From Pseudomonadota bacterium (GTDB lineage Bacteria; Pseudomonadota; Alphaproteobacteria; Rhizobiales; Xanthobacteraceae): DNA of 9,267 nt. Below, piece by piece: positions 1 to 9,025 of this stretch. A model generated the notes under the pieces. That model was not told the origin of the DNA. It ran no database searches and saw only the letters and a list, made by a program, of their open reading frames with translations. Each line of letters opens with the position of its first letter. Position 1 is the first letter of the stretch. The stretch lies in the NCBI GenBank assembly GCA_021779635.1, contig JAJYAH010000216.1, positions 1-9,267 of the forward strand. Direction: 5' to 3'. The position numbers and the translations under genes were made by a program.

Positions 1-600
1 ATCTTCAAAACCCTCGCTCCCGGGATCGGCGACATCCCGCGTACACCGGGGAGAGAGAAGTCCGCCACCGGCACCTCCGAATCCGGCTACCTGCATTGCG
101 GACCCAGCGGCGCAGGTCATTTCGTCAAGATGGTCCACAACGGCATCGAGTATGGACTGATGGCCGCATATGCCGAGGGACTCGGCATTTTGCGTGCGGC
201 GAATATCGGCAAGAAGCCGCATACGGTCGACGCCGAAACGACGCCACTGCGCATCCCCGAACATTACCAGTACGATCTCAATCTGCCTGACATCGCCGAG
301 GTATGGCGACGCGGCAGCGTGGTTGCCTCGTGGCTTCTTGATCTGACCGCAACCGCGCTGCTGGAGGACCCTGCGCTCGCCAAATTCGCAGGCCGAGTCT
401 CGGATTCCGGCGAAGGACGCTGGACTATTGCGGCAGCCATCGACGAGGCGGTCCCTGCCCCGGTGCTGACCACGGCACTTTACGAGCGCTTCAGCTCGCG
501 GGGCGAAGCCGATTTCCAGAATAAACTGCTTTCGGCGATGCGCTACGAATTCGGCGGGCATCTGGAAAAGCCCGGCGGCGACAAAACGGGGTCGGCATGA
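1..600 (+). CDS. gnd: 6-phosphogluconate dehydrogenase, decarboxylating (C-terminal part, 5' end outside window)
   Basis: Oxidative pentose phosphate enzyme converting 6-phosphogluconate to ribulose 5-phosphate, CO2 and NAD(P)H in the cytoplasm. The frame is open from base 1 to TGA at 598-600 (199 residues). It contains the family signature [19 protein letters not shown] at about residues 34-52, holding the catalytic Lys (44), the His-Asn pair (47-48) and the Glu (51) of the active site. The conserved end [15 protein letters not shown] is at about 176-190. The short bacterial form of the family is about 330-345 residues, so roughly 140 N-terminal residues, including the Rossmann nucleotide-binding domain, lie outside the window. 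Cofactor preference (NAD or NADP) therefore cannot be judged. The stop overlaps the start codon of the zwf remnant (ATGA), which shows the two were translationally coupled in one operon. Nothing in the visible part looks damaged. Confidence 0.95.
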
Positions 601-695
601 GCGAACTTCGGTCGGAGGCGTTGGTGTTTTTCGGCGCAACGGGCGGTCTTGCTTACAAGAGGATCTTTCCCGGGATGCTTCGGGAAAGGTATTGA
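597..695 (+). pseudogene. zwf: glucose-6-phosphate dehydrogenase remnant (first ~25 codons)
   Basis: ATG at 597 overlaps the gnd stop. The reading begins [17 protein letters not shown] and continues LAYKRIFP, which matches the N-terminus of bacterial glucose-6-phosphate dehydrogenase with its GxxGDLA nucleotide-binding loop. Homology stops at the IFP triplets (about 671); the frame then runs seven more codons of unrelated sequence to TGA at 693-695. The full enzyme is about 490-510 residues, so about 95% is missing. The nearly invariant Asp of the GATGDLA loop is Gly here, a second sign of relaxed selection. The ATGA junction with gnd means a 32-residue nonsense peptide may still be translated. 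Confidence 0.85.
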
Positions 696-853
696 GCGTG
701 CTGGCGCAGAATCTTCCGCCGTCGAAGCTGCGCCCGTTCGGCGCGACCTTCCTGATCTTCAGCGACTGCGCTCGACTCGCGATACGGCTTGCCGCGTCAA
801 TGGAGTTGCCGACAATCTTGGCTTTTACCGACGACGCGATGGGCGACGATGCC
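666..853 (+). pseudogene. tkt: classical transketolase relic with internal deletion
   Basis: In the frame of 692 (different from the zwf frame) the sequence reads SRDASGKVLSVLAQNLP, then directly SKLRPFGATFLIFSD and on through MELPTI to DAMGD. The first piece matches the RDASGKVLN(x)LA segment at the start of the middle domain of classical bacterial transketolase. The second matches the later KLRPFG(S/A)TFLIFSDYARPAIRL segment. In intact enzymes about 45-55 residues lie between them, including the GGSADLAPS(N/T)KT region and the catalytic Glu of IREHAM; here the two pieces abut at about 716-722. Conserved positions are also changed: SDYARP reads SDCARL, and FTHDAMG reads FTDDAMG. Homology fades at about 850, just before the GEDGPTHQP motif, and the frame ends at TGA 875-877. 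It is clearly non-functional and is not a copy of the transketolase at 3694-5697, which belongs to another subfamily. Confidence 0.8.
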
Positions 854-873
854 GCACCGGAAAGCCGCATAAC

Positions 874-3597
874 ATGAACGACACGGAGCAGCGAAAACCA
901 CCGCCTTCGGCGGAGCACGCAAGGCTCGCCGACTCGTCTCCTGATGCGCCCGGCGACTGGAAAGTGATAGGGCCCTATGTCAGCGAGCGCGCCTGGGGCA
1001 CGGTACGCGAAGACTACAGTGCCGATGGCAAGGCATGGGGGTATTTCCCCTATGAGCACGCGCGCTCGCGCGCCTATCGCTGGAATGAGGACGGCCTCGC
1101 CGGTCTGAGCGACCGGTCGCAGCGCCTGTGTTTTGCGCTGACGTTCTGGAATGGACGCGATCCCTTTCTGAAGGAGCGCATCTTCGGCCTCAGCGGGCCG
1201 GAGGGAAATCACGGCGAGGATGCCAAGGAGTATTGGTGGTACAGCGATGCGACACCGACAAGCTCGTGGCTGCGCTGGCGTTACCACTACCCGCAGGCCG
1301 AGTTTCCCTATGCGCTGCTTCGGCAGGAGAACGCCAGGCGCAACAAGGAAGAACCCGAATTCGAACTCGTCGATACCGGCGTTTTCGAGAAGGACCGCTA
1401 CTGGCAGATCACGGCGGACTACGCCAAAGCCTCGCCCGACGACATATGCATGCGCATCAGTGTGCGGAACGCGGGCCCCGATCCGGCTGAGATTCACGTT
1501 CTGCCGACCCTGTGGTTCCGCAACCGCTGGTCATGGGAGGCTGGTATCGAGCGGCCGGCCGTCCAGGCGACCGCCGAGGATCGAGGCGATACGATCAGCG
1601 CAATCGCCGAAGAACAGTTGCTCGGCCGGTGGCGACTCACGGCTGGCCCGGATCCGGCGGGCAAGCCGCCGACGCTGCTGTTCTGTGAAAACGAAACCAA
1701 TGTTCGGTACCTCTATGGCGACCCGGCCGAGCAGACGCCCTATCCCAAGGACGGTATCAACGACCACGTCGTCCAGGGGGCTGCGACGGTCAATCCGGCG
1801 GGGCACGGCACCAAGATGGCGTGCTGGTATCGCCTCACGGTTGCGGCAGGTGGGACCGTCGAACTCAGGCTTCGCTTCGGGCGCGACACGCCAGGAGCAA
1901 AGCCCGACCTCGGCGCGGGTTTCGAACAAATCCATGCCGTTCGCAGCCGCGAAGCCGACGAGTACTATGCGACGCTCACCCCCGACGGCGCGAGTGACGA
2001 TGAGGCCGTGATGATGCGGCAGGCGTTCGCGGGAATGATATGGAGCCAGCAGTTCTATCACTACGACGTTGCGCGCTGGCTCGACGGCGACACCGTGCCG
2101 CCGGCGACCGCACGCAAATCAGGCCGCAATGCAGACTGGCGTCATCTCAGCAATCACGACATCATCGCGATGCCCGACAAATGGGAATACCCTTGGTATG
2201 CCTCCTGGGATCTCGCTTTCCATTGCATTGTGCTGGCCTACATCGACCCGTCGGCATCGAAGCATCAATTGCTGCTGCTGGCGCGCGAGTGGTACATGCA
2301 CCCGAACGGCCAACTGCCGGCGTACGAATGGAATTTCAGCGACGTCAATCCGCCGGTGCAGGCGTGGGCTGCGCTTGCGGTGTTCCGGATCGACGGCGGC
2401 ACCGATTTCGACTTCCTGGCGCGGGCCTTCCACAAGCTGCTGATCAACTTCACCTGGTGGGTCAATCGAAAGGACGCCTACGGCGACAACCTGTTCGAGG
2501 GAGGGTTTCTCGGGCTCGACAATATCGGTCCGTTTGACCGCTCGGCGATGCTTCCGGACGGGGATGTCCTGGAACAGTCCGACGGCACCGCCTGGATGGC
2601 GAAATTCTGCCTCAACATGCTCGAAATGGCGCTGCGGCTCGCCAATCACGACCCCACCTACGAAGACGTCGCCGTAAAGTTCTTCGACCACTTCGTCCTG
2701 ATCGCGACGGCGATGGACAAACTATGGGACGATCAGGACGGCTTTTTCTACGATCGGCTGCGCAAGCGCGATGGCAGCGCGTTCACGGTGCGGGCGCGCT
2801 CGGTGGTGGGACTGCTGCCGGTGTTCGCCGCAGTGGAGCTCGACGCATCGCTTTGGGAGCGGCTGCCGATGTTCCGTAAACGCGTGCGCTGGCACATCGA
2901 AAAAAAACTGGCTGTCGCCGACTTTCTGCACCGGCTGCCCGGCGACGATCGTCCCTGGCTGATCTCACTGGTGGGCAAGTCGCGCTTGCGGCAGGTGCTG
3001 GGCCGGATGCTCGACGAGGCCGAGTTTCTGTCGCCCTATGGGCTGCGGTCGCTTTCGCGCTACCACCTCGAACATCCGCTTATTATCAATCTGGAAGGCC
3101 ACATCGCCCGCCTCGACTACGAGCCTGGCGAGTCACGCACCGCGCTGTTCGGAGGTAACTCGAACTGGCGCGGCCCGATATGGCTTCCACTCAATTTTCT
3201 GGCGATCGAGTCGCTGCGGCATCTGCACGCCAGCTTTGAGGGAGGCCTGACCGTCGAACTGCCGACCGGATCCGGCAGCCAGGCCAGCCTGCAACAGGTG
3301 GCTGACGAGCTCGAACGCCGGCTGCTCAGGTTGTTCCTGCGCGACGCCGACGGCCGACGGCCCGCGCTGGGATCGAACCCTTGCTTCCAGCGCGATGGAG
3401 CGTGGTGCGATTCCCTGTTGTTCCATGAGTACTTCAACGGCGATACCGGTGAAGGCCTCGGCGCCTCGCACCAGACCGGCTGGACGGCTCTGGCCGGCGC
3501 ACTGGTAGCGGACCGGCGTTTGCGCGACGCCAAGCGCGCGAAAGTCGGGGGGAGCAATTCATCAATTCACTCGCCGCCTATCTCGACGGCGATATAA
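874..3597 (+). CDS. GH63 / MGH1-like glucosidase (amylo-/mannosyl-oligosaccharide glucosidase-like)
   Basis: Predicted cytoplasmic glycoside hydrolase of 907 residues, the usual size for bacterial proteins annotated 'glucosidase' or 'MGH1-like glycoside hydrolase' (clan of GH63). An N-terminal beta-rich domain (about 30-370) is followed by an (alpha/alpha)6 barrel (about 375-880). In the barrel, WYASWDLAFH (441-450) carries the likely acid Asp446, GGNSNWRGPIW lies at 760-770, and HEYFNGDTGEGLG (851-863) with HQTGW (866-870) carries the likely base Glu852. These catalytic assignments are by analogy with GH63 and untested here. No signal peptide is seen. ATG 874 was chosen over an upstream in-frame start at 649, because 649-873 overlaps the zwf and tkt relics; GGAAAG at 859-864 is a weak ribosome site 9 nt upstream. 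The substrate is unknown; in related genomes such genes sit with pentose phosphate, trehalose or glycogen genes. The last ~17 residues, after the G6 run at 3547-3552, look unnatural (see the neighbouring feature). Confidence 0.85.
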   Translation: MNDTEQRKPPPSAEHARLADSSPDAPGDWKVIGPYVSERAWGTVREDYSADGKAWGYFPYEHARSRAYRWNEDGLAGLSDRSQRLCFALTFWNGRDPFLKERIFGLSGPEGNHGEDAKEYWWYSDATPTSSWLRWRYHYPQAEFPYALLRQENARRNKEEPEFELVDTGVFEKDRYWQITADYAKASPDDICMRISVRNAGPDPAEIHVLPTLWFRNRWSWEAGIERPAVQATAEDRGDTISAIAEEQLLGRWRLTAGPDPAGKPPTLLFCENETNVRYLYGDPAEQTPYPKDGINDHVVQGAATVNPAGHGTKMACWYRLTVAAGGTVELRLRFGRDTPGAKPDLGAGFEQIHAVRSREADEYYATLTPDGASDDEAVMMRQAFAGMIWSQQFYHYDVARWLDGDTVPPATARKSGRNADWRHLSNHDIIAMPDKWEYPWYASWDLAFHCIVLAYIDPSASKHQLLLLAREWYMHPNGQLPAYEWNFSDVNPPVQAWAALAVFRIDGGTDFDFLARAFHKLLINFTWWVNRKDAYGDNLFEGGFLGLDNIGPFDRSAMLPDGDVLEQSDGTAWMAKFCLNMLEMALRLANHDPTYEDVAVKFFDHFVLIATAMDKLWDDQDGFFYDRLRKRDGSAFTVRARSVVGLLPVFAAVELDASLWERLPMFRKRVRWHIEKKLAVADFLHRLPGDDRPWLISLVGKSRLRQVLGRMLDEAEFLSPYGLRSLSRYHLEHPLIINLEGHIARLDYEPGESRTALFGGNSNWRGPIWLPLNFLAIESLRHLHASFEGGLTVELPTGSGSQASLQQVADELERRLLRLFLRDADGRRPALGSNPCFQRDGAWCDSLLFHEYFNGDTGEGLGASHQTGWTALAGALVADRRLRDAKRAKVGGSNSSIHSPPISTAI

Positions 3598-3650
3598 CCC
3601 GGACGCCTAACGGCGGAGACATGATCTCATTTCAGTCGGCGGCTGCTTAA
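3547..3650 (+). other. possible original C-terminus of the glucosidase, out of frame after a G6 run
   Basis: The glucosidase frame crosses six consecutive G residues (3547-3552) and then ends in a Ser/Pro-rich tail of about 15 residues. Adding one G would switch translation to a second frame reading EQFINSLAAYLDGD, then ITRTPNGGDMISFQSAAA, with stop TAA at 3648-3650. That frame has protein-like composition and would give about 925 residues. What is seen is the open frame and the homopolymer. That it is the ancestral C-terminus is inference; it could instead be the end of another decayed gene, which I could not identify. Confidence 0.4.
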
Positions 3651-3693
3651 GACTCCCATAAAGACCATCGCAGCACGCGAAGCCCCGACATGG

Positions 3694-5697
3694 TCAGGAG
3701 GGCGCCGGCGCGCGCTGGCGCGTCAGGGTCTTCGCCGCCTGCACGATATCGGCCACCGAGAGATGCACGTAGGCGAGCACATCATCCGCCGTGCGCCCGC
3801 TCTTGGGAATGTTGCGCACGGCCAGCATGCGCACAAGCGGCCCATTTCCCGAGGCGGCGGCCGCTTCGGCGATTTCGCTGCCGATGCCGCCGACATAGCT
3901 GTCCTCCACGGCCAGGATCGGCGCACCGGCGCTGCGTGCGAGTTCGAGCAAAGGCGCCGCCTCGAGCGGCAGCGCATAGGCATCGATTACCGTCGTCGCG
4001 ACGCCGAGTGGCTGCAATGCGTCTGCGGCCTTGAGGCAGCTATGGACGAGATATCCGGCACCGGCGAGCACAATCGCGGGCCGATCCGACTCGGCGCGGC
4101 GGACCACCTTATAGCCGCCGAAGGGGAAGCCTTCGCTCTCGCGATAGAGGATCGGCAGGTCGCCGCGTACCGCGCGTAGATAGCATGCGCTCGGATGCTC
4201 TGCCATCGCCAGCACCAGGTTGTAGGCGCTGACCGGATCGCTCGGCGTCAGCACCGTCATGGCAGGATTGCCGCGGAAGTCATCCGTATGGGCGAGCGCG
4301 CGCATGAATCCCACATCGGCCAGCGCCATCTGGCTCGGCCCATCGGAGGCGAGGGTGACACCGACATGAGTCCCAACCACCTTTATGGGCAGTCCGCTGA
4401 TAATCGCCATTTCGATCTCGTCCAAAGCGCGCTCCATGAACCGACCGAAAGTGCTGACAAAGGCGATCTTGCCACCGGCGGCGAGGCCGGCGCACGCCGA
4501 AACCATGTTCTGTTCGGCGATGCGGCCTTCGAAATAGCGCTCGGGATAAGCCTTGGCGAAATCCTCCGCGTAAGTCGAGTTCTTGACGTCGCCGTCGAGC
4601 GCAACGATGCGCGGATTGGCGGCGCCGAGTGCCTTGAGCGCCAGCCCATAAGCGCGTCGCGGCGATAGCGCCTTCTTTTCCTCGACCGATTTAGCCACCT
4701 TGGTGTTGCCTGCCACGGCGGCCATGAACCCCGCCGGCGGGCGCGTGGCCGGCAGCGTTGTCGGTGTCGCCGTCGGCTGGGCGATCGGCAAGCCACGCGC
4801 CATTTCTTCCTGCGAGATCGCAGCTACTCCGAGTTCCTTCGCGCGCTGGTCGAGCGCTCCGAGCACCGAGTCGAGCTGGTCTTTTGGAACCGGCGTCCCA
4901 TGGTGGCCCATACCCTGAAGAGCGGGCACGCCCCAGCCTTTGACGGTGCGTGCGATAATAGCGAGAGCTTGACCTTCCTTGGCCAACCCGGCGCGTCGCC
5001 CAAGTGCCGCCAGGATCGCCTCGGGGTCATGGCCGTCTACCACCAAAGTGGTCCACCCGAAGGCTTCGGCCTTGTGCTGGAGATGCGTCCAATCCTGCTC
5101 GCGCGAGACGAAGTCGCTTTGGCCGAGTTCGTTGCAGTTGAACAGGGCAACGACGTTCGAGAGGCGTTGGTCCCGGATGAAATCCATCGCCTCCCAGATC
5201 TGCCCCTCGCGTGACTCGCCGTCGCCAACGATGCAATAGATGACCTTATCGATGCCGTCGATGCGCGCAGCGCAGCCGAGTCCGCCTGCAACCGAGAGCC
5301 CCTGTCCCAAGGACCCCGTCGCCGCGTCAAAGAATGGAAAGCCCAATGCCGGGTTGGGGTGACCGTCGATCGCGCTGTCGATCTCTCGCAGCGTCATGAG
5401 ATCATCCACGGTCATTCGTTTAGCCTGGCCGTGAGGACAGAAGGCAGCACCGAGGTCGGCGCAAGCGGCGTAGATGATTGGCACAGCATGGCCCTCGGAC
5501 AGCACCAGGCGATCTGCGCCGGGATCGCGCGGCTGCTCCGGTCGCCAGCGCATCGTGTGATACATCAGCGTGGCAATCAGATGCGCAAGCGCGAGCGCGC
5601 TGGTGGGATGGCCGCTGCCTGCAGCTGTGGTGGCGCGAACGGCAAGCTTGCCGAGAGCGATCGCCTTGGCGTTAATGAGTTGACTCAGCGTTGCCAT
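3694..5697 (-). CDS. tkt: transketolase, vertebrate-like single-chain subfamily
   Basis: Thiamine-diphosphate enzyme moving two-carbon ketol units between sugar phosphates in the non-oxidative pentose phosphate pathway (or Calvin cycle). It has 667 residues. The pyrophosphate-binding N-domain has SGHPTSAL (His30), SEGH (His70), DGHPN (His113), the ThDP motif GDGESREGQIWEAMDF from 158 with its Asn near 187-189, and GMGHHGTP (His265/266). A Pro/Thr/Ala-rich linker spans about 300-345. The pyrimidine domain has ALDGDVKNSTYAEDF (366-380), IAEQNM (393-398, catalytic Glu395) and DGPSQMAL (452-459), followed by the C-terminal domain. DGPSQMAL and the LDGD(x)KNST block are hallmarks of mammalian-type transketolase, where Gln (here 456) replaces the His of DGPTHQ. 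Human TKT is ~623 residues; the excess here is mostly linker. Start 5697 is fixed by GAGGAG six nt upstream and by the family N-terminus; the open frame to 5979 lacks homology. It converges on the glucosidase, stops 96 nt apart. Confidence 0.93.
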   Translation of the reverse strand: MATLSQLINAKAIALGKLAVRATTAAGSGHPTSALALAHLIATLMYHTMRWRPEQPRDPGADRLVLSEGHAVPIIYAACADLGAAFCPHGQAKRMTVDDLMTLREIDSAIDGHPNPALGFPFFDAATGSLGQGLSVAGGLGCAARIDGIDKVIYCIVGDGESREGQIWEAMDFIRDQRLSNVVALFNCNELGQSDFVSREQDWTHLQHKAEAFGWTTLVVDGHDPEAILAALGRRAGLAKEGQALAIIARTVKGWGVPALQGMGHHGTPVPKDQLDSVLGALDQRAKELGVAAISQEEMARGLPIAQPTATPTTLPATRPPAGFMAAVAGNTKVAKSVEEKKALSPRRAYGLALKALGAANPRIVALDGDVKNSTYAEDFAKAYPERYFEGRIAEQNMVSACAGLAAGGKIAFVSTFGRFMERALDEIEMAIISGLPIKVVGTHVGVTLASDGPSQMALADVGFMRALAHTDDFRGNPAMTVLTPSDPVSAYNLVLAMAEHPSACYLRAVRGDLPILYRESEGFPFGGYKVVRRAESDRPAIVLAGAGYLVHSCLKAADALQPLGVATTVIDAYALPLEAAPLLELARSAGAPILAVEDSYVGGIGSEIAEAAAASGNGPLVRMLAVRNIPKSGRTADDVLAYVHLSVADIVQAAKTLTRQRAPAPS

Positions 5698-5703
5698 GGA
5701 GCT

Positions 5704-5709
5704 CTCCTC
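5704..5709 (-). promoter_or_regulatory. ribosome binding site of transketolase
   Basis: On the minus strand GAGGAG lies six nt before ATG 5697. It decides this start against the longer open frame that reaches 5979, whose extra 94 residues are Arg-rich and resemble no transketolase leader. Confidence 0.75.
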
Positions 5710-5815
5710 GATAAGATTTTCGACGGCGCGCGGCCGGTCTGGACAAGCCGCCAAACTACGGGAACATCCTGCAGGCCACTCGCGTGCTCGACCATCCAAC
5801 CCTAGGCGGAAGCCG

Positions 5816-5828: not shown

Positions 5829-5938
5829 ATGAGCGGGCCCTACGAGGAGACGACTTGCGCGATCGGACGCTGTGCTCGATGATCGTGAATCGGGCGAGTG
5901 GATCCGCGGGACACGAACGACGGCGGGTTCGTCGTCGC
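5829..5938 (+). pseudogene. possible remnant of an HxlR-type regulator N-terminus
   Basis: From ATG 5829 the reading MSGPYEETTCAIGR resembles the start of HxlR-family winged-helix regulators, which begin with a Cys-x-[IV]-x-R motif. It is then broken by stops at 5877 and 5883. Later in the same frame, RDTNDGGFVV (about 5908-5937) could correspond to the RD(x)(x)xGxRRF segment of the family. Such regulators often accompany short-chain dehydrogenases like the one just downstream. The match is short and made by eye, so this is a suggestion rather than a firm call. Confidence 0.25.
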
Positions 5939-5970
5939 TTGACAATGGTCTTGCGGCCACAGCATTGACA
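5939..5970 (+). promoter_or_regulatory. two TTGACA hexamers upstream of the dehydrogenase remnant
   Basis: TTGACA occurs at 5939-5944 and again at 5965-5970, starts 26 nt apart, in the leader of the short-chain dehydrogenase remnant (ATG 5991). The first is a consensus -35, but the matching -10 region (5962-5968, GCATTGA) is poor. The second lies too near the ATG to serve it. A sigma70 promoter is possible but unproven. Confidence 0.25.
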
Positions 5971-5980
5971 TGCAGCCAAT

Positions 5981-5985
5981 GGAGA
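5981..5985 (+). promoter_or_regulatory. ribosome binding site marking the original start of the dehydrogenase
   Basis: GGAGA lies five nt before ATG 5991. It shows that the true start was the ATG whose reading frame is now broken, and not a TTG at 6001. Confidence 0.6.
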
Positions 5986-5990
5986 AACCT

Positions 5991-6591
5991 ATGAAAATCG
6001 TTGGCTAGCGGAACGATCGGAGGCGCAGTAGTCAAGCTGTTAAGGCAAAGGCATCAGGTTATCGCGGTCTCGCGCTCAAGCGGCGATTACCGCGCCGACA
6101 TCACCAATAAGGCGTCGATCGAGACAGCTCTCGGCGCGATCGGCAAGGTCGATGCAATCGTAAGCGCGGCGGGAAGCGCGGTGTTCAAACCCCTTTCGGC
6201 GCTCACAGACTCCGATTTCGAGAAATCGCTTCACGACAAGCTCATGGGACAGGTCAACGTCGTCCGGGCCGGCGCTCAGCATATTCTGCCCGGGGGTTCG
6301 ATCACGCTCACCAGTGGCATTCTGGCGCAACAACCCATACCGGGTTCCGCCGCGATAAGCCTGGTCAATGCCGGATTGGAAGGGTTCGGCCGCGCTGCAG
6401 CACTCGAACTCCAAAGCGCTAAAGTCCGGGTGAACGTCGTCAGCCCGCCCTGGGTAAAGGAGACGCTTGTCGCGCTGAATATGAACCCCTCCTCCGGCAT
6501 GCCTGCTGACGAAGTCGCCAAGGTCTATGCCCAAAGTGTGGAGGGCAGCGCGACCGGAACAATCATCGATGCGAGGGAGACTGCCGGCTGA
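5991..6591 (+). pseudogene. short-chain dehydrogenase (Lin1944-like SDR), frameshifted at the N-terminus
   Basis: ATG 5991 with a good ribosome site encodes only Met-Lys-Ile-Val-Gly before TAG at 6006-6008. From 6001 another frame reads ASGTIGGAVVKLL and continues as an otherwise intact 196-residue SDR. The expected start is MKIVVIGASGTIG, so loss of 2, 5 or 8 nt around 6000-6004 explains the break and removes the first strand and first Gly of the Rossmann motif. Family features include VDAIVSAAGSA, KLMGQVN, GGSITLTSGIL, then SAAISLVNAGLEGFGRAAALEL and RVNVVSPPWV. Where classical SDRs have YxxxK there is no Tyr-Lys pair, as in the Lin1944-like group of unknown function. Restored, it would be ~200 residues, normal for the group. 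TTG 6001 could in principle start a shortened protein without a proper nucleotide site. A sequencing error is the other explanation. Confidence 0.75.
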
Positions 6592-6805
6592 TGGTTGCGG
6601 GCGGAAGCGAGTGAAGGAAGCCTTGCGCTTAACCGATTGATGTTCGCAATGGGGTCAAATGCATGGGTTGATGATCCGCCTGTCTCTTCCGGTCTCCCCC
6701 GAACAGACATCGTCAGACCCAGCGGTGCTGATAGTTCCATCTGACTGCGCTGGCCAGCCCGCGTAAACTGCATTTCTATCGCGGATCTCTGACGCCACCC
6801 TGGGG

Positions 6806-7021
6806 TTAATGAAGCTGTTGCCCGTGGGTTTTACTTACTGTCGGCTGCCGCGGCCGCGCCTCCGGCGTTGATGTCAATGCTTGTGTTGGATATCCGGCGG
6901 TGACACCGCAGAGCGAAGGAGAGGAATCACACTCGTGACTAACCGTGCCACCCTTGGCGAGCGCCGCTGAGCTGGCAAGCGTCAGGGCCGTCACCAATCC
7001 AATAGTGGTTAATTTTTTCAT
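6806..7021 (-). CDS. small secreted protein, probably frameshifted near its C-terminus
   Basis: ATG 7021 is preceded by GGGAG seven nt upstream. The first ~22 residues form a clear Sec signal peptide: MKKLTT, a hydrophobic core, then SSAALA with likely cleavage before KGG. As it stands the frame gives 71 residues to TAA at 6806-6808. The mature part has two Cys (about 30 and 38) and a C-terminus rich in Pro, Arg, Thr and Gln. A second minus frame from about 6885 reads SIDINAGGAAAAADSK and stops at 6831-6833, which looks much more like a natural protein end. One missing nucleotide around 6880-6890 would join the two into ~63 residues. I recognise no family. A leader with two Shine-Dalgarno-like units and a FixK-type box ~285 nt upstream may control it. 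It lies alone, separated by ~500 nt from the operon to its right. Confidence 0.6.
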   Translation of the reverse strand: MKKLTTIGLVTALTLASSAALAKGGTVSHECDSSPSLCGVTAGYPTQALTSTPEARPRQPTVSKTHGQQLH

Positions 7022-7028
7022 TGCCTTT

Positions 7029-7050
7029 CTCCCTCTGTTCTCCCTCTGTT
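7029..7050 (-). repeat. perfect 11-bp tandem duplication containing the ribosome binding site
   Basis: The + strand unit CTCCCTCTGTT occurs twice without a gap (7029-7039 and 7040-7050). On the minus strand each copy carries AACAGAGGGAG, so the small secreted-protein gene has two purine-rich ribosome-site-like copies. The nearer one is at the proper distance (seven nt) from the ATG. Confidence 0.9.
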
Positions 7051-7251
7051 ACAGGCACAAAGAACAACGCCTACGTGGCTAGGGGTGACGGTCGCCTCTT
7101 TCCATGCTGCGCCCGCCCTCGAAATCCGGTTGACCAGTCAAAAATGTCTCAGCATGCCGGGAAAATATCGGGCCGAAAATGAAGTTCCAGCAATAACGGA
7201 TAAGCTTCGCCGGCTGCCGGAATGCTTCTAATCATCCGGAAAAACGTTACT

Positions 7252-7264
7252 GACATCGGATGTC
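7252..7264. promoter_or_regulatory. perfect short palindrome, possible operator
   Basis: GACATC-G-GATGTC is a 6-bp inverted repeat around one base, located 42-54 nt from the FixK-type box. On the minus strand it falls near the start site predicted from that box. It may be chance; no known regulator is assigned. Confidence 0.25.
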
Positions 7265-7305
7265 GGAAACAGCGTAATCAATATTCCGCTCTTTAGTTTG
7301 CGGCT

Positions 7306-7319
7306 TTGACTTAGATCAA
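7306..7319. promoter_or_regulatory. FixK/FNR-type binding site
   Basis: TTGACTTAGATCAA matches the CRP/FNR-family consensus TTGA-N6-TCAA used by FNR, Anr and the rhizobial FixK proteins; all eight defining bases agree. For a class II promoter on the + strand (site centred at -41.5) the predicted -10 falls at about 7342-7347, where TAAATT (7341-7346) is a fair match. On the minus strand the predicted -10 lies at about 7278-7285 (TATTGA-like), which would give a ~250-nt leader to the small secreted-protein gene. Which direction is used cannot be decided from sequence. Regulation by low oxygen is the expected consequence, by family knowledge. Confidence 0.6.
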
Positions 7320-7388
7320 AATTTTTCCGTAGCTAACAATTAAATTTTACCTTGCACAGGTCCGCACTGCCGAGCGCTCATTTTACCA

Positions 7389-7442
7389 TCATCAACGCAT
7401 CCGGGAGCGTGGCGGGTTCAGCCAAACCGCCAACAATGATGA
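7389..7442 (+). other. nested inverted repeat, possible structured RNA element
   Basis: TCATCA (7389-7394) pairs with TGATGA (7437-7442). Inside, GGCGGGTT (7411-7418) pairs, with one bulged G, with AACCGCC (7425-7431) around a six-base loop. It lies downstream of the + direction promoter suggested by the FixK-type box. There is no T-run, so it is not a standard terminator. Function unknown. Confidence 0.3.
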
Positions 7443-7523
7443 GCGGCCGCGCGCGAGCGTCCGGCGTCGGAGCGCGTCCCTTTCCTTGAGGGCGCGCTTC
7501 GGAATCGAGGGCGCCGGCGGGTC

Positions 7524-7988
7524 CTAACCTTTGCCCCAGTTCCAATATTCACCCGGATAGGGAGTCGGATACATGCGCTCGCGGTACCGATGTTCGCGAT
7601 GATAGGCGCGCAGAGCCACCGCGCCGGCTGTCGTCGTCGGTCGAATGTTCACGACCTCGGATTCGGCGGCCAAGACTGCCACGTGCAAACGCATCTGATC
7701 GTCATCGTGGGGCGCGCCCTTGAGAGCCTCCCAGGCTTGCCGGTGATGCTCGATCGCAGCGAAAATCGGGTCGGGCTCCGGAGTCGCGAGAGCGCCCCTC
7801 CCCGGAGCTACGAGGGTCGCGAGCGCTGCGGCCATCATGGTCCGCCGGCTGATACGCCGCGCGGAACCCGCAATGTAACCAGAGCGATACGCGCGCTGGT
7901 TTTCGCTTGGCGATCGCCTGCCCGTGAGGCCGTCGGCGAAACCAGCCTGCCACGGCATCGGGTCCTGACATTCCGTTTCAGATCCCAT
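7524..7988 (-). CDS. hypothetical protein: Rmf/CrpP-like N-terminus, internal Tat-type signal, small C-terminal domain
   Basis: 154 residues. ATG 7988 was chosen because GGAG lies six nt before it (7995-7998); an in-frame ATG at 8000 has no ribosome site. Residues ~12-41 (PWQAGFADGLTGR, then AYRSGYIAG) resemble the A..G..AG..G / Y..GY..G pattern of ribosome-modulation-factor/CrpP-like small proteins. Residues 47-68 form a twin-arginine-type signal: SRRTMM, a hydrophobic stretch AAALATLVAP, then GRGALA with cleavage possible after Ala68. The remainder (DPIFAAIEHHRQAWEAL, then TTTAGAVALRAY) resembles small Tat-signal hypothetical proteins of rhizobia, and ends in an aromatic tail PYPGEYWNWGKG. 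A signal preceded by ~45 residues is unusual and may mean a fusion of two small genes. It lies 20 nt downstream of the ATP-grasp gene, so they are probably co-transcribed. Function unknown; family likenesses are by eye. Confidence 0.7.
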   Translation of the reverse strand: MGSETECQDPMPWQAGFADGLTGRRSPSENQRAYRSGYIAGSARRISRRTMMAAALATLVAPGRGALATPEPDPIFAAIEHHRQAWEALKGAPHDDDQMRLHVAVLAAESEVVNIRPTTTAGAVALRAYHREHRYRERMYPTPYPGEYWNWGKG

Positions 7989-8008
7989 AGTTATCTCCAT
8001 TGGTGAGT

Positions 8009-9025
8009 TTACACTTCGAAAGTGATTCCCCTCCTTGCTGCAGCACGCTCGACGATGTCCCTTACCACCAGCGCAGGCTCATGACCTGCCAGCGCCAGGG
8101 TGCCCAAGAATTCCGAGTAAGGAGTCATGAGCGGGTCTGGGGTGATTTCTATGACGAGCAGTTCGCCGTCCCACAACCGGCCATCGATTCGAATCAAATC
8201 TATTGTCTTGAGATCCGCGGCAAGCTGAACGATCTTCGAGAGTAGCTCGTCGGTCATAAACTCGACGGAGCGCAGCGCAACCCGTCGGTCACCCGAAAAT
8301 TTGAGCTTGTAGTCGTAGACATGGTTTATCAGAAAACTTGATTCTTCCCCCACGATCCTTTCAGAACACCCCCACCGAAAGCTCCCACCTTTATCGAACG
8401 CAAGGCTGACGAACACCTCCGGACCGGAGACGAACTCCTCGACTATTATTCCCTCCGGGAAGTTGCCCAGCTTGTGTAGCGCCAAGTCTTTGGCTTCTTC
8501 CATCGTTGTGCAAATCGACCCTTGGTCGATGCCGATCGATGACCCTTCCATATTGGGTTTAACGATCACGGGAACGCGAAGGGCGCTGATCAGGTCAGTT
8601 TGCGTTGGGGTTGCAACCAAGACGGACGCCGGCGATTCCAGACCCGCTCGCCTGAGAAAGACTTTGGAAAGAGATTTGTCGTTGGCGATCAGCCGGGCAT
8701 AGGGATCGGGCCCGACGTATCGCAATCCATAGATCTCGCAGATTGCTGCGACATATCCAGTGCGATTGCGATTTCTTGAACCATTCCAATGTGGCCATAC
8801 GACAGCATCATGGAGTTTGGGAGCCTGCTGGATAAAGTCTGCCAAATCAAAGAACACGGTCACATCGTCCACGGCTGACTTCATCAGATCTCTTATGTGA
8901 ACTGCTTGTTCAGGTGTCGTCATGTCCAGGTCACGGGATCCGAGCGATAGCAAGGAATTCTCTCGCTCGCGGCCCTCTGTTATGAGTGCGAGCCGAAGCG
9001 GTAACCGGTCCGCGGCGAAAGGCAT
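8009..9025 (-). CDS. ATP-grasp ligase, D-alanine-D-alanine ligase-like
   Basis: 338 residues, within the Ddl range. Ddl-like features in order: GRERENSLLSLG (18-29), aligning with the EREVSL(x)SG motif that binds the first substrate; NDK(x)3K (115-121); VIVKPNMEGSSIGI (153-166), the ATP-binding strand and glycine loop; IVEEFVSGPEVFV (194-206); YDYKLKF (237-243), the omega loop; IRIDGRLW (278-285); and IEITPDPLMTPYSEF (292-306). The last normally reads E-[IV]-N-x-x-P-G-M-T; here the metal-binding Asn is Thr295 while MT and Ser304 remain. By family it joins an amino acid to another amino acid or peptide using ATP. Given the Asn change and lack of cell-wall neighbours, it may be a specialised peptide ligase rather than the housekeeping enzyme. 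ATG 9025 is preceded by AGGA (9032-9035, spacing six); a TTG at 9061 would extend the frame but has no homology. Base composition is visibly lower in G+C (about 45-52% in sampled lines) than the left half, suggesting acquisition. Confidence 0.85.
   Translation of the reverse strand: MPFAADRLPLRLALITEGRERENSLLSLGSRDLDMTTPEQAVHIRDLMKSAVDDVTVFFDLADFIQQAPKLHDAVVWPHWNGSRNRNRTGYVAAICEIYGLRYVGPDPYARLIANDKSLSKVFLRRAGLESPASVLVATPTQTDLISALRVPVIVKPNMEGSSIGIDQGSICTTMEEAKDLALHKLGNFPEGIIVEEFVSGPEVFVSLAFDKGGSFRWGCSERIVGEESSFLINHVYDYKLKFSGDRRVALRSVEFMTDELLSKIVQLAADLKTIDLIRIDGRLWDGELLVIEITPDPLMTPYSEFLGTLALAGHEPALVVRDIVERAAARRGITFEV

Follow-up and report, generated by a model that had tools for sequence, protein, structure and literature searches.

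The window analysed here, a stretch of DNA of 9,267 nucleotides, holds about 270 bp of zwf and tkt leftovers sandwiched between gnd and a GH63/MGH1-like glucosidase gene. We read this scar, with a probability of about 93%, as a multiply deleted pseudogene remnant of zwf and tkt in a Bradyrhizobium-like bacterium. On the left, the 3' part of gnd (6-phosphogluconate dehydrogenase of the PRK09599/TIGR00872 type; NCBIfam PRK09599, E 6e-70) is open to its stop at positions 1 to 600. On the right, the glucosidase gene (874 to 3597, 907 aa; Pfam PF22422, E 7e-21, and PF03200, E 3e-8) is also open. The space between them is filled by the start of zwf (597 to 670, the first 74 nt with the start codon) and by three pieces of tkt: piece 1 (671 to 718, RDASGKVLSVLAQNLP), piece 2 (719 to 848, SKLRPFGATFLIFSDCARLAIRLAASMELPTILAFTDDAMGD) and piece 3 (849 to 871), the latter being the tkt 3' end up to the position of the stop, now out of frame. 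All these features lie on the forward strand, and a 61-aa ORF (692 to 877) runs across the three tkt pieces. That the scar is ordinary gene decay is well supported, and the locus is best read as a partly decayed accessory pentose-phosphate cluster.

Deletions relative to the intact cluster

The glucosidase next to the scar had its best relative (82% aa identity), among the genome contigs scanned, in Bradyrhizobium elkanii WSM2783, hereafter L001, whose cluster is open throughout: gnd at 3380-4411, zwf at 4414-5787, tkt at 5932-7998 and the glucosidase at 8001-10724. The gnd product of the window is 88% identical in amino acids to that of L001. At the family level, 260 of 391 genomes matched positions 401-1100 of the window (E<=0.001), the matches listed covering mostly the gnd end only. 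At the genus level, 77 of 265 genomes matched positions 560-900 (E<=1e-8); the zwf start was matched in at least 11 of the 265, these eleven all being inspected, and none of the matches listed from the 265 genomes ran unbroken from the zwf start into the tkt piece.

Fourteen further loci were examined by tblastn in addition to L001. Ten loci of the Bradyrhizobium group (nine of these and L001) keep the order gnd-zwf-tkt-glucosidase, with 454-457 of 457 aa of zwf, 687-688 of 688 aa of tkt and no internal stops in either gene. The comparison with intact relatives proposed in the initial annotation could be made, and full-length zwf and tkt stood in these ten loci, without the short scar. Partial clusters were also found: L138 has gnd-tkt; L139, L140 and L146 have gnd-tkt and a zwf that is 35-37% identical; L134 (genome G350) has gnd-zwf, with no trace of tkt or glucosidase (E<=1e-3) in the 6.1 kb past it (3853-10001). 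In two of the ten loci zwf and tkt are open but the glucosidase is not intact: it carries frame changes and stops in L141 (genome G450, 6157-8798) and one frame change in L137 (genome G354, 7649-7653). The same cluster is possibly decaying in parallel there, unless the assemblies are in error. In L135, zwf and tkt lie about 2 kb apart (3476-5684), and the interval contains an open frame of 707 residues, presumably a glycogen-debranching enzyme from its appearance; the spacing in L136 is similar.

Positions 597-900 were aligned with the ten loci as chained pieces, allowing no gaps inside pieces and forward jumps only, so that colinearity is built into this alignment. The same three deletions, of about 2.5 kb (about 4.6 kb against two loci), 156 bp and 593 bp, were obtained against 10 of 10. 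Junction 1, at 670/671, joins nt 1-74 of zwf to tkt from codon 373 onwards. These two points are separated by 2493-2562 bp in eight relatives, and by 4611-4613 bp in the remaining two, where an additional 2 kb or so stands between zwf and tkt. Junction 2, between 711 and 722, corresponds to an in-frame skip of 156 bp in all ten, past which piece 2 continues in the frame of piece 1. Piece 2 runs to 841-848, depending on the relative. At junction 3, which follows at about 842-849, the stretch towards the tkt stop has lost 593 bp against nine of the ten relatives, and 516 and 77 bp against L144. Further jumps after 871, within the divergent first glucosidase codons (1 bp in L001 and L144; 451-886 bp starting from 881 or 890 in L133, L135, L136, L141 and L142), were set aside as noise. 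Plain blastn against L001, in which the order is not forced, also returned the first three pieces colinear and in the ancestral order; piece 849-871 lies outside the blastn pieces and rests on the chained alignment and on direct reading of the tkt/glucosidase boundary.

The initial annotation had placed two junctions, at about 669-674 and 716-722, and had proposed at least two deletions removing almost all of zwf and most of tkt in a strain that keeps gnd. The ten relatives bear out both junctions and the losses, the count of deletions being three rather than two because of junction 3. The scar is a pseudogene remnant: its homologous pieces are colinear, and deletions separate them when they are compared with the intact orthologues at this position in relatives. 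On this reading the ancestor carried gnd-zwf-tkt-glucosidase in one run, as the ten loci still do; the deletions shown by the alignment left zwf with its first 74 bp and tkt with about 200 bp, the part of gnd that lies in the window and the glucosidase staying open.

Junction 1 lies inside a predicted hairpin (663-690; stem of 12 bp, loop of 4 nt), formed between zwf- and tkt-derived sequence. It stands out only marginally, 11 of 200 shuffles of 640-720 folding at least as well, and was not retained as a special structure. No terminator-like site was detected on the forward strand between 500 and 1000 (two were on the reverse strand), and the exact 25-mer across junction 1 had 0 matches in viral contigs. 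Five plasmid records matched the whole window, none covering more than 8% of it.

Identity and decay of the zwf and tkt pieces

Using tblastn, residues 1-27 of the intact L001 Zwf matched positions 597-677 (44.7 bits, E 3e-8) and the intact L001 Tkt matched positions 692-847 (71.2 bits, E 3e-16). In 1000 mononucleotide shuffles of 597-873, no score exceeded 25.8 and 26.2 bits, respectively, so that the Zwf and Tkt matches announced in these frames by the initial annotation stand well above the shuffled background. When the zwf-tkt stretch of L001 was compared with the window by blastn, identities were 84% over 597-670, 79% over 671-717 and 82% over 722-846, and the only match elsewhere was one of 15 bp (E 0.097). 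In terms of identical nucleotides, the zwf piece shares 62 of 74 with L001 4414-4487, piece 1 of tkt 33 of 41 (671-711 against 7048-7088) and piece 2 108 of 137 (712-848 against 7245-7381); in the chained alignment piece 3 shares 15 of 23.

The zwf stub reads as a 32-aa ORF (597-695) that ends in a foreign frame. It aligns with positions 1-19 of the Pfam G6PD_N profile at an E-value of 0.049, below cut-off, and has no G6PD_C, when both domains are present in the intact L001 Zwf. Since Pfam is weak by itself here, the stub is identified by its DNA identity (74 nt at 84%) and by its position directly after gnd. With about 24 codons left it is a remnant and, lacking the G6PD_N and G6PD_C pair, does not count as a Zwf. 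The estimate of about 25 retained zwf codons was accurate, the stretch being 74 bp long. As for the gnd-zwf ATGA coupling described as kept, the overlap exists in the window but its exact form is absent from L001, in which 2 bp separate the end of gnd from zwf.

The whole frame of the tkt scrap matches TIGR00232 (E 9.7e-9, positions 420-459 of 654) and, below the Pfam cut-off, positions 73-114 of the 174 of Transket_pyr (E 4.7e-5). The intact L001 Tkt has the TPP-binding, pyrimidine-binding and C-terminal domains; the scrap, without this full set, is not a member of the classical transketolases (TIGR00232). The 156 bp lost at junction 2 encode the FGIREHAM segment of the L001 tkt, whose Glu we take to be the transketolase catalytic Glu. 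The initial annotation had this junction removing the catalytic Glu region, and the loss of the segment is confirmed. At the other end of the scrap, GAAAGCCGCATA is exactly common to piece 3 and to the tkt 3' ends of 7 of the 10 relatives; across the tkt stop and glucosidase start, 6 of the 10 have CGAAAGCCGCATAGCATGGACGA, and the window reads CGGAAAGCCGCATAACATGAACGA.

Pairwise dN/dS against intact relatives lay at 0.04-0.07 in gnd (ten relatives) and at 0.09-0.10 in the glucosidase (nine rows, without L141), compared with 0.10-0.18 in the scrap of tkt and 0.10-0.25 in that of zwf; these values are averages over a long functional past. We also counted changes at sites invariant in intact homologues. 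Over 14 homologues, 4 of 34 such sites in tkt are altered in the window (N>S, Y>C, P>L and H>D) versus 0 of 122 in gnd (Fisher p 0.002). With the ten closest rows the counts were 7/49 for tkt and 3/21 for zwf versus 3/160 for gnd (p 0.002 and 0.02, respectively), and with 8 rows (L137 and L141 left out) 7/51 and 3/21 versus 54/678 for the glucosidase (p 0.18 and 0.24). Loss of constraint is thus only modestly visible, because dN/dS is still low and the difference from the glucosidase is not significant.

A second lineage and the alternative explanations

Searching for proteins with frame 599-874, taken from stop to stop, returned nine (P0241 to P0249). The first, P0241 (2 member sequences, 7419-nt contig), is identical to the 61-aa ORF and is encoded by the window itself. 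The second, P0242 (59 aa), comes from another source, a 601-nt contig labelled ena, and is only 88% identical, yet junctions 2 and 3 recur in it, together with the out-of-frame tail. Junction 2 falls at the same codon (LAQTLP/LPKLRPF in P0242, LAQNLP/PSKLRPF in the window), and junction 3 in the same place, with the whole tail identical (AMGDDAAPESRIT, after which P0242 ends). The seven others, P0243 to P0249, have neither junction. The scar is therefore common to at least one other, diverged lineage as regards junctions 2 and 3, junction 1 being known from the window alone. P0242 changes 3 of 23 invariant tkt sites, two of them as in the window (Y>C and H>D), and these common changes fit, without proving, a decay already under way when the two lineages parted.

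Neither lineage has lost the open 59/61-aa ORF, which counts against a plain remnant. It could be asked if the remnant ORFs were kept for a function, either as a 61-codon peptide or as a relay that passes translation on from gnd to the glucosidase. The identical tail in P0242 speaks for such a role, as does the overlap of the end of the 61-aa ORF with the glucosidase start (ATGA at 874-877). Against this, the peptide is no more than part of the pyrimidine-binding domain and has changes at invariant residues, and 26,911 of 60,000 random three-deletion scars (45%) drawn from three intact relatives show a relay under the same lax rule. The relay was for this reason rejected as a sign of function and carries no weight as evidence, and we regard a retained function as quite improbable.

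An assembly or sequencing artefact, in which parts of an intact locus were brought together in a chimeric or collapsed contig, could be suspected, as the window may come from a metagenome record and junction 1 has no independent witness. Recurrence of junctions 2 and 3 in P0242, from another source and at 88% identity, indicates that the scar is not merely an error of this assembly. The adjoining glucosidase recurs as well, at 99% identity over its full length including the C-terminus, in a separate 5130-nt contig (P0121), and the three blastn pieces keep the ancestral order. We consider an artefact very improbable. It is scarcely credible that the chain of overlapping mini-ORFs (32 aa of zwf, then 61 aa of tkt) moves ribosomes from gnd to the glucosidase, the scar having been co-opted as a translation bridge and selected across lineages.

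Probable redundancy, neighbouring genes and comparison with known systems

The preferred reading, a deleted remnant of zwf and tkt, leaves gnd next to a lost zwf, and the initial annotation had pointed out that gnd would then be without its usual partner unless another copy existed. This worry is probably unfounded: in 12 of 12 relatives exactly two G6PD_C matches exceeded the cut-off, one of them away from the cluster. The same 12 relatives all carry at least two further transketolase-like genes (query cluster tkt, E<=1e-100; 41-47% identity, one match being partial). The loss of the cluster zwf and tkt was thus probably tolerable, and redundancy, as seen in these relatives, would be its simplest reason: a second zwf and further transketolase genes elsewhere in the genome likely allowed the scar to persist.

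The window also encodes, on the reverse strand (3694-5697), another transketolase, which is open, 667 aa long and of the NF004559 type. It shares about 26% identity with the lost tkt, for which it could stand in. Only 3 of 391 family genomes matched it (E<=1e-100, 42-45% identity), for which reason it may have been acquired, despite a 64% identical protein in Bradyrhizobium sp. SYSU BS000235. Further on, a short-chain dehydrogenase gene (PRK07578; 6001-6591, forward strand) lacks its first residues, the model match starting at position 8, and the upstream ATG opens a frame that is interrupted; this may be another decaying gene. A second frameshift suspected at the glucosidase C-terminus was dropped, because this C-terminus recurs in P0121 and, in similar form, in P0122.

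The locus documents how an accessory pentose-phosphate cluster decays; some genomes of the Bradyrhizobium group have this cluster whole, and in others it is partly missing or broken. The picture of central metabolism is not changed by the locus. For annotation purposes, protein collections list the tkt scrap as a protein of 59-61 aa. In the part of the literature accessible to us, nothing was found evidently dealing with this cluster or its zwf/transketolase pseudogene in Bradyrhizobium.

Compared with the gnd-zwf-tkt-GH63 cluster of L001 and nine genomes of its genus, the window has the same gene order, with segments 79-84% identical in nucleotides to L001, but three deletions and about 270 bp left where zwf and tkt are full length in these genomes. 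Successive deletions commonly make bacterial pseudogene remnants, owing to deletional bias. Like ordinary remnants of this kind, the scar consists of colinear leftovers with no complete functional domain between open neighbours, and it is distinctive only in retaining both outer gene ends.
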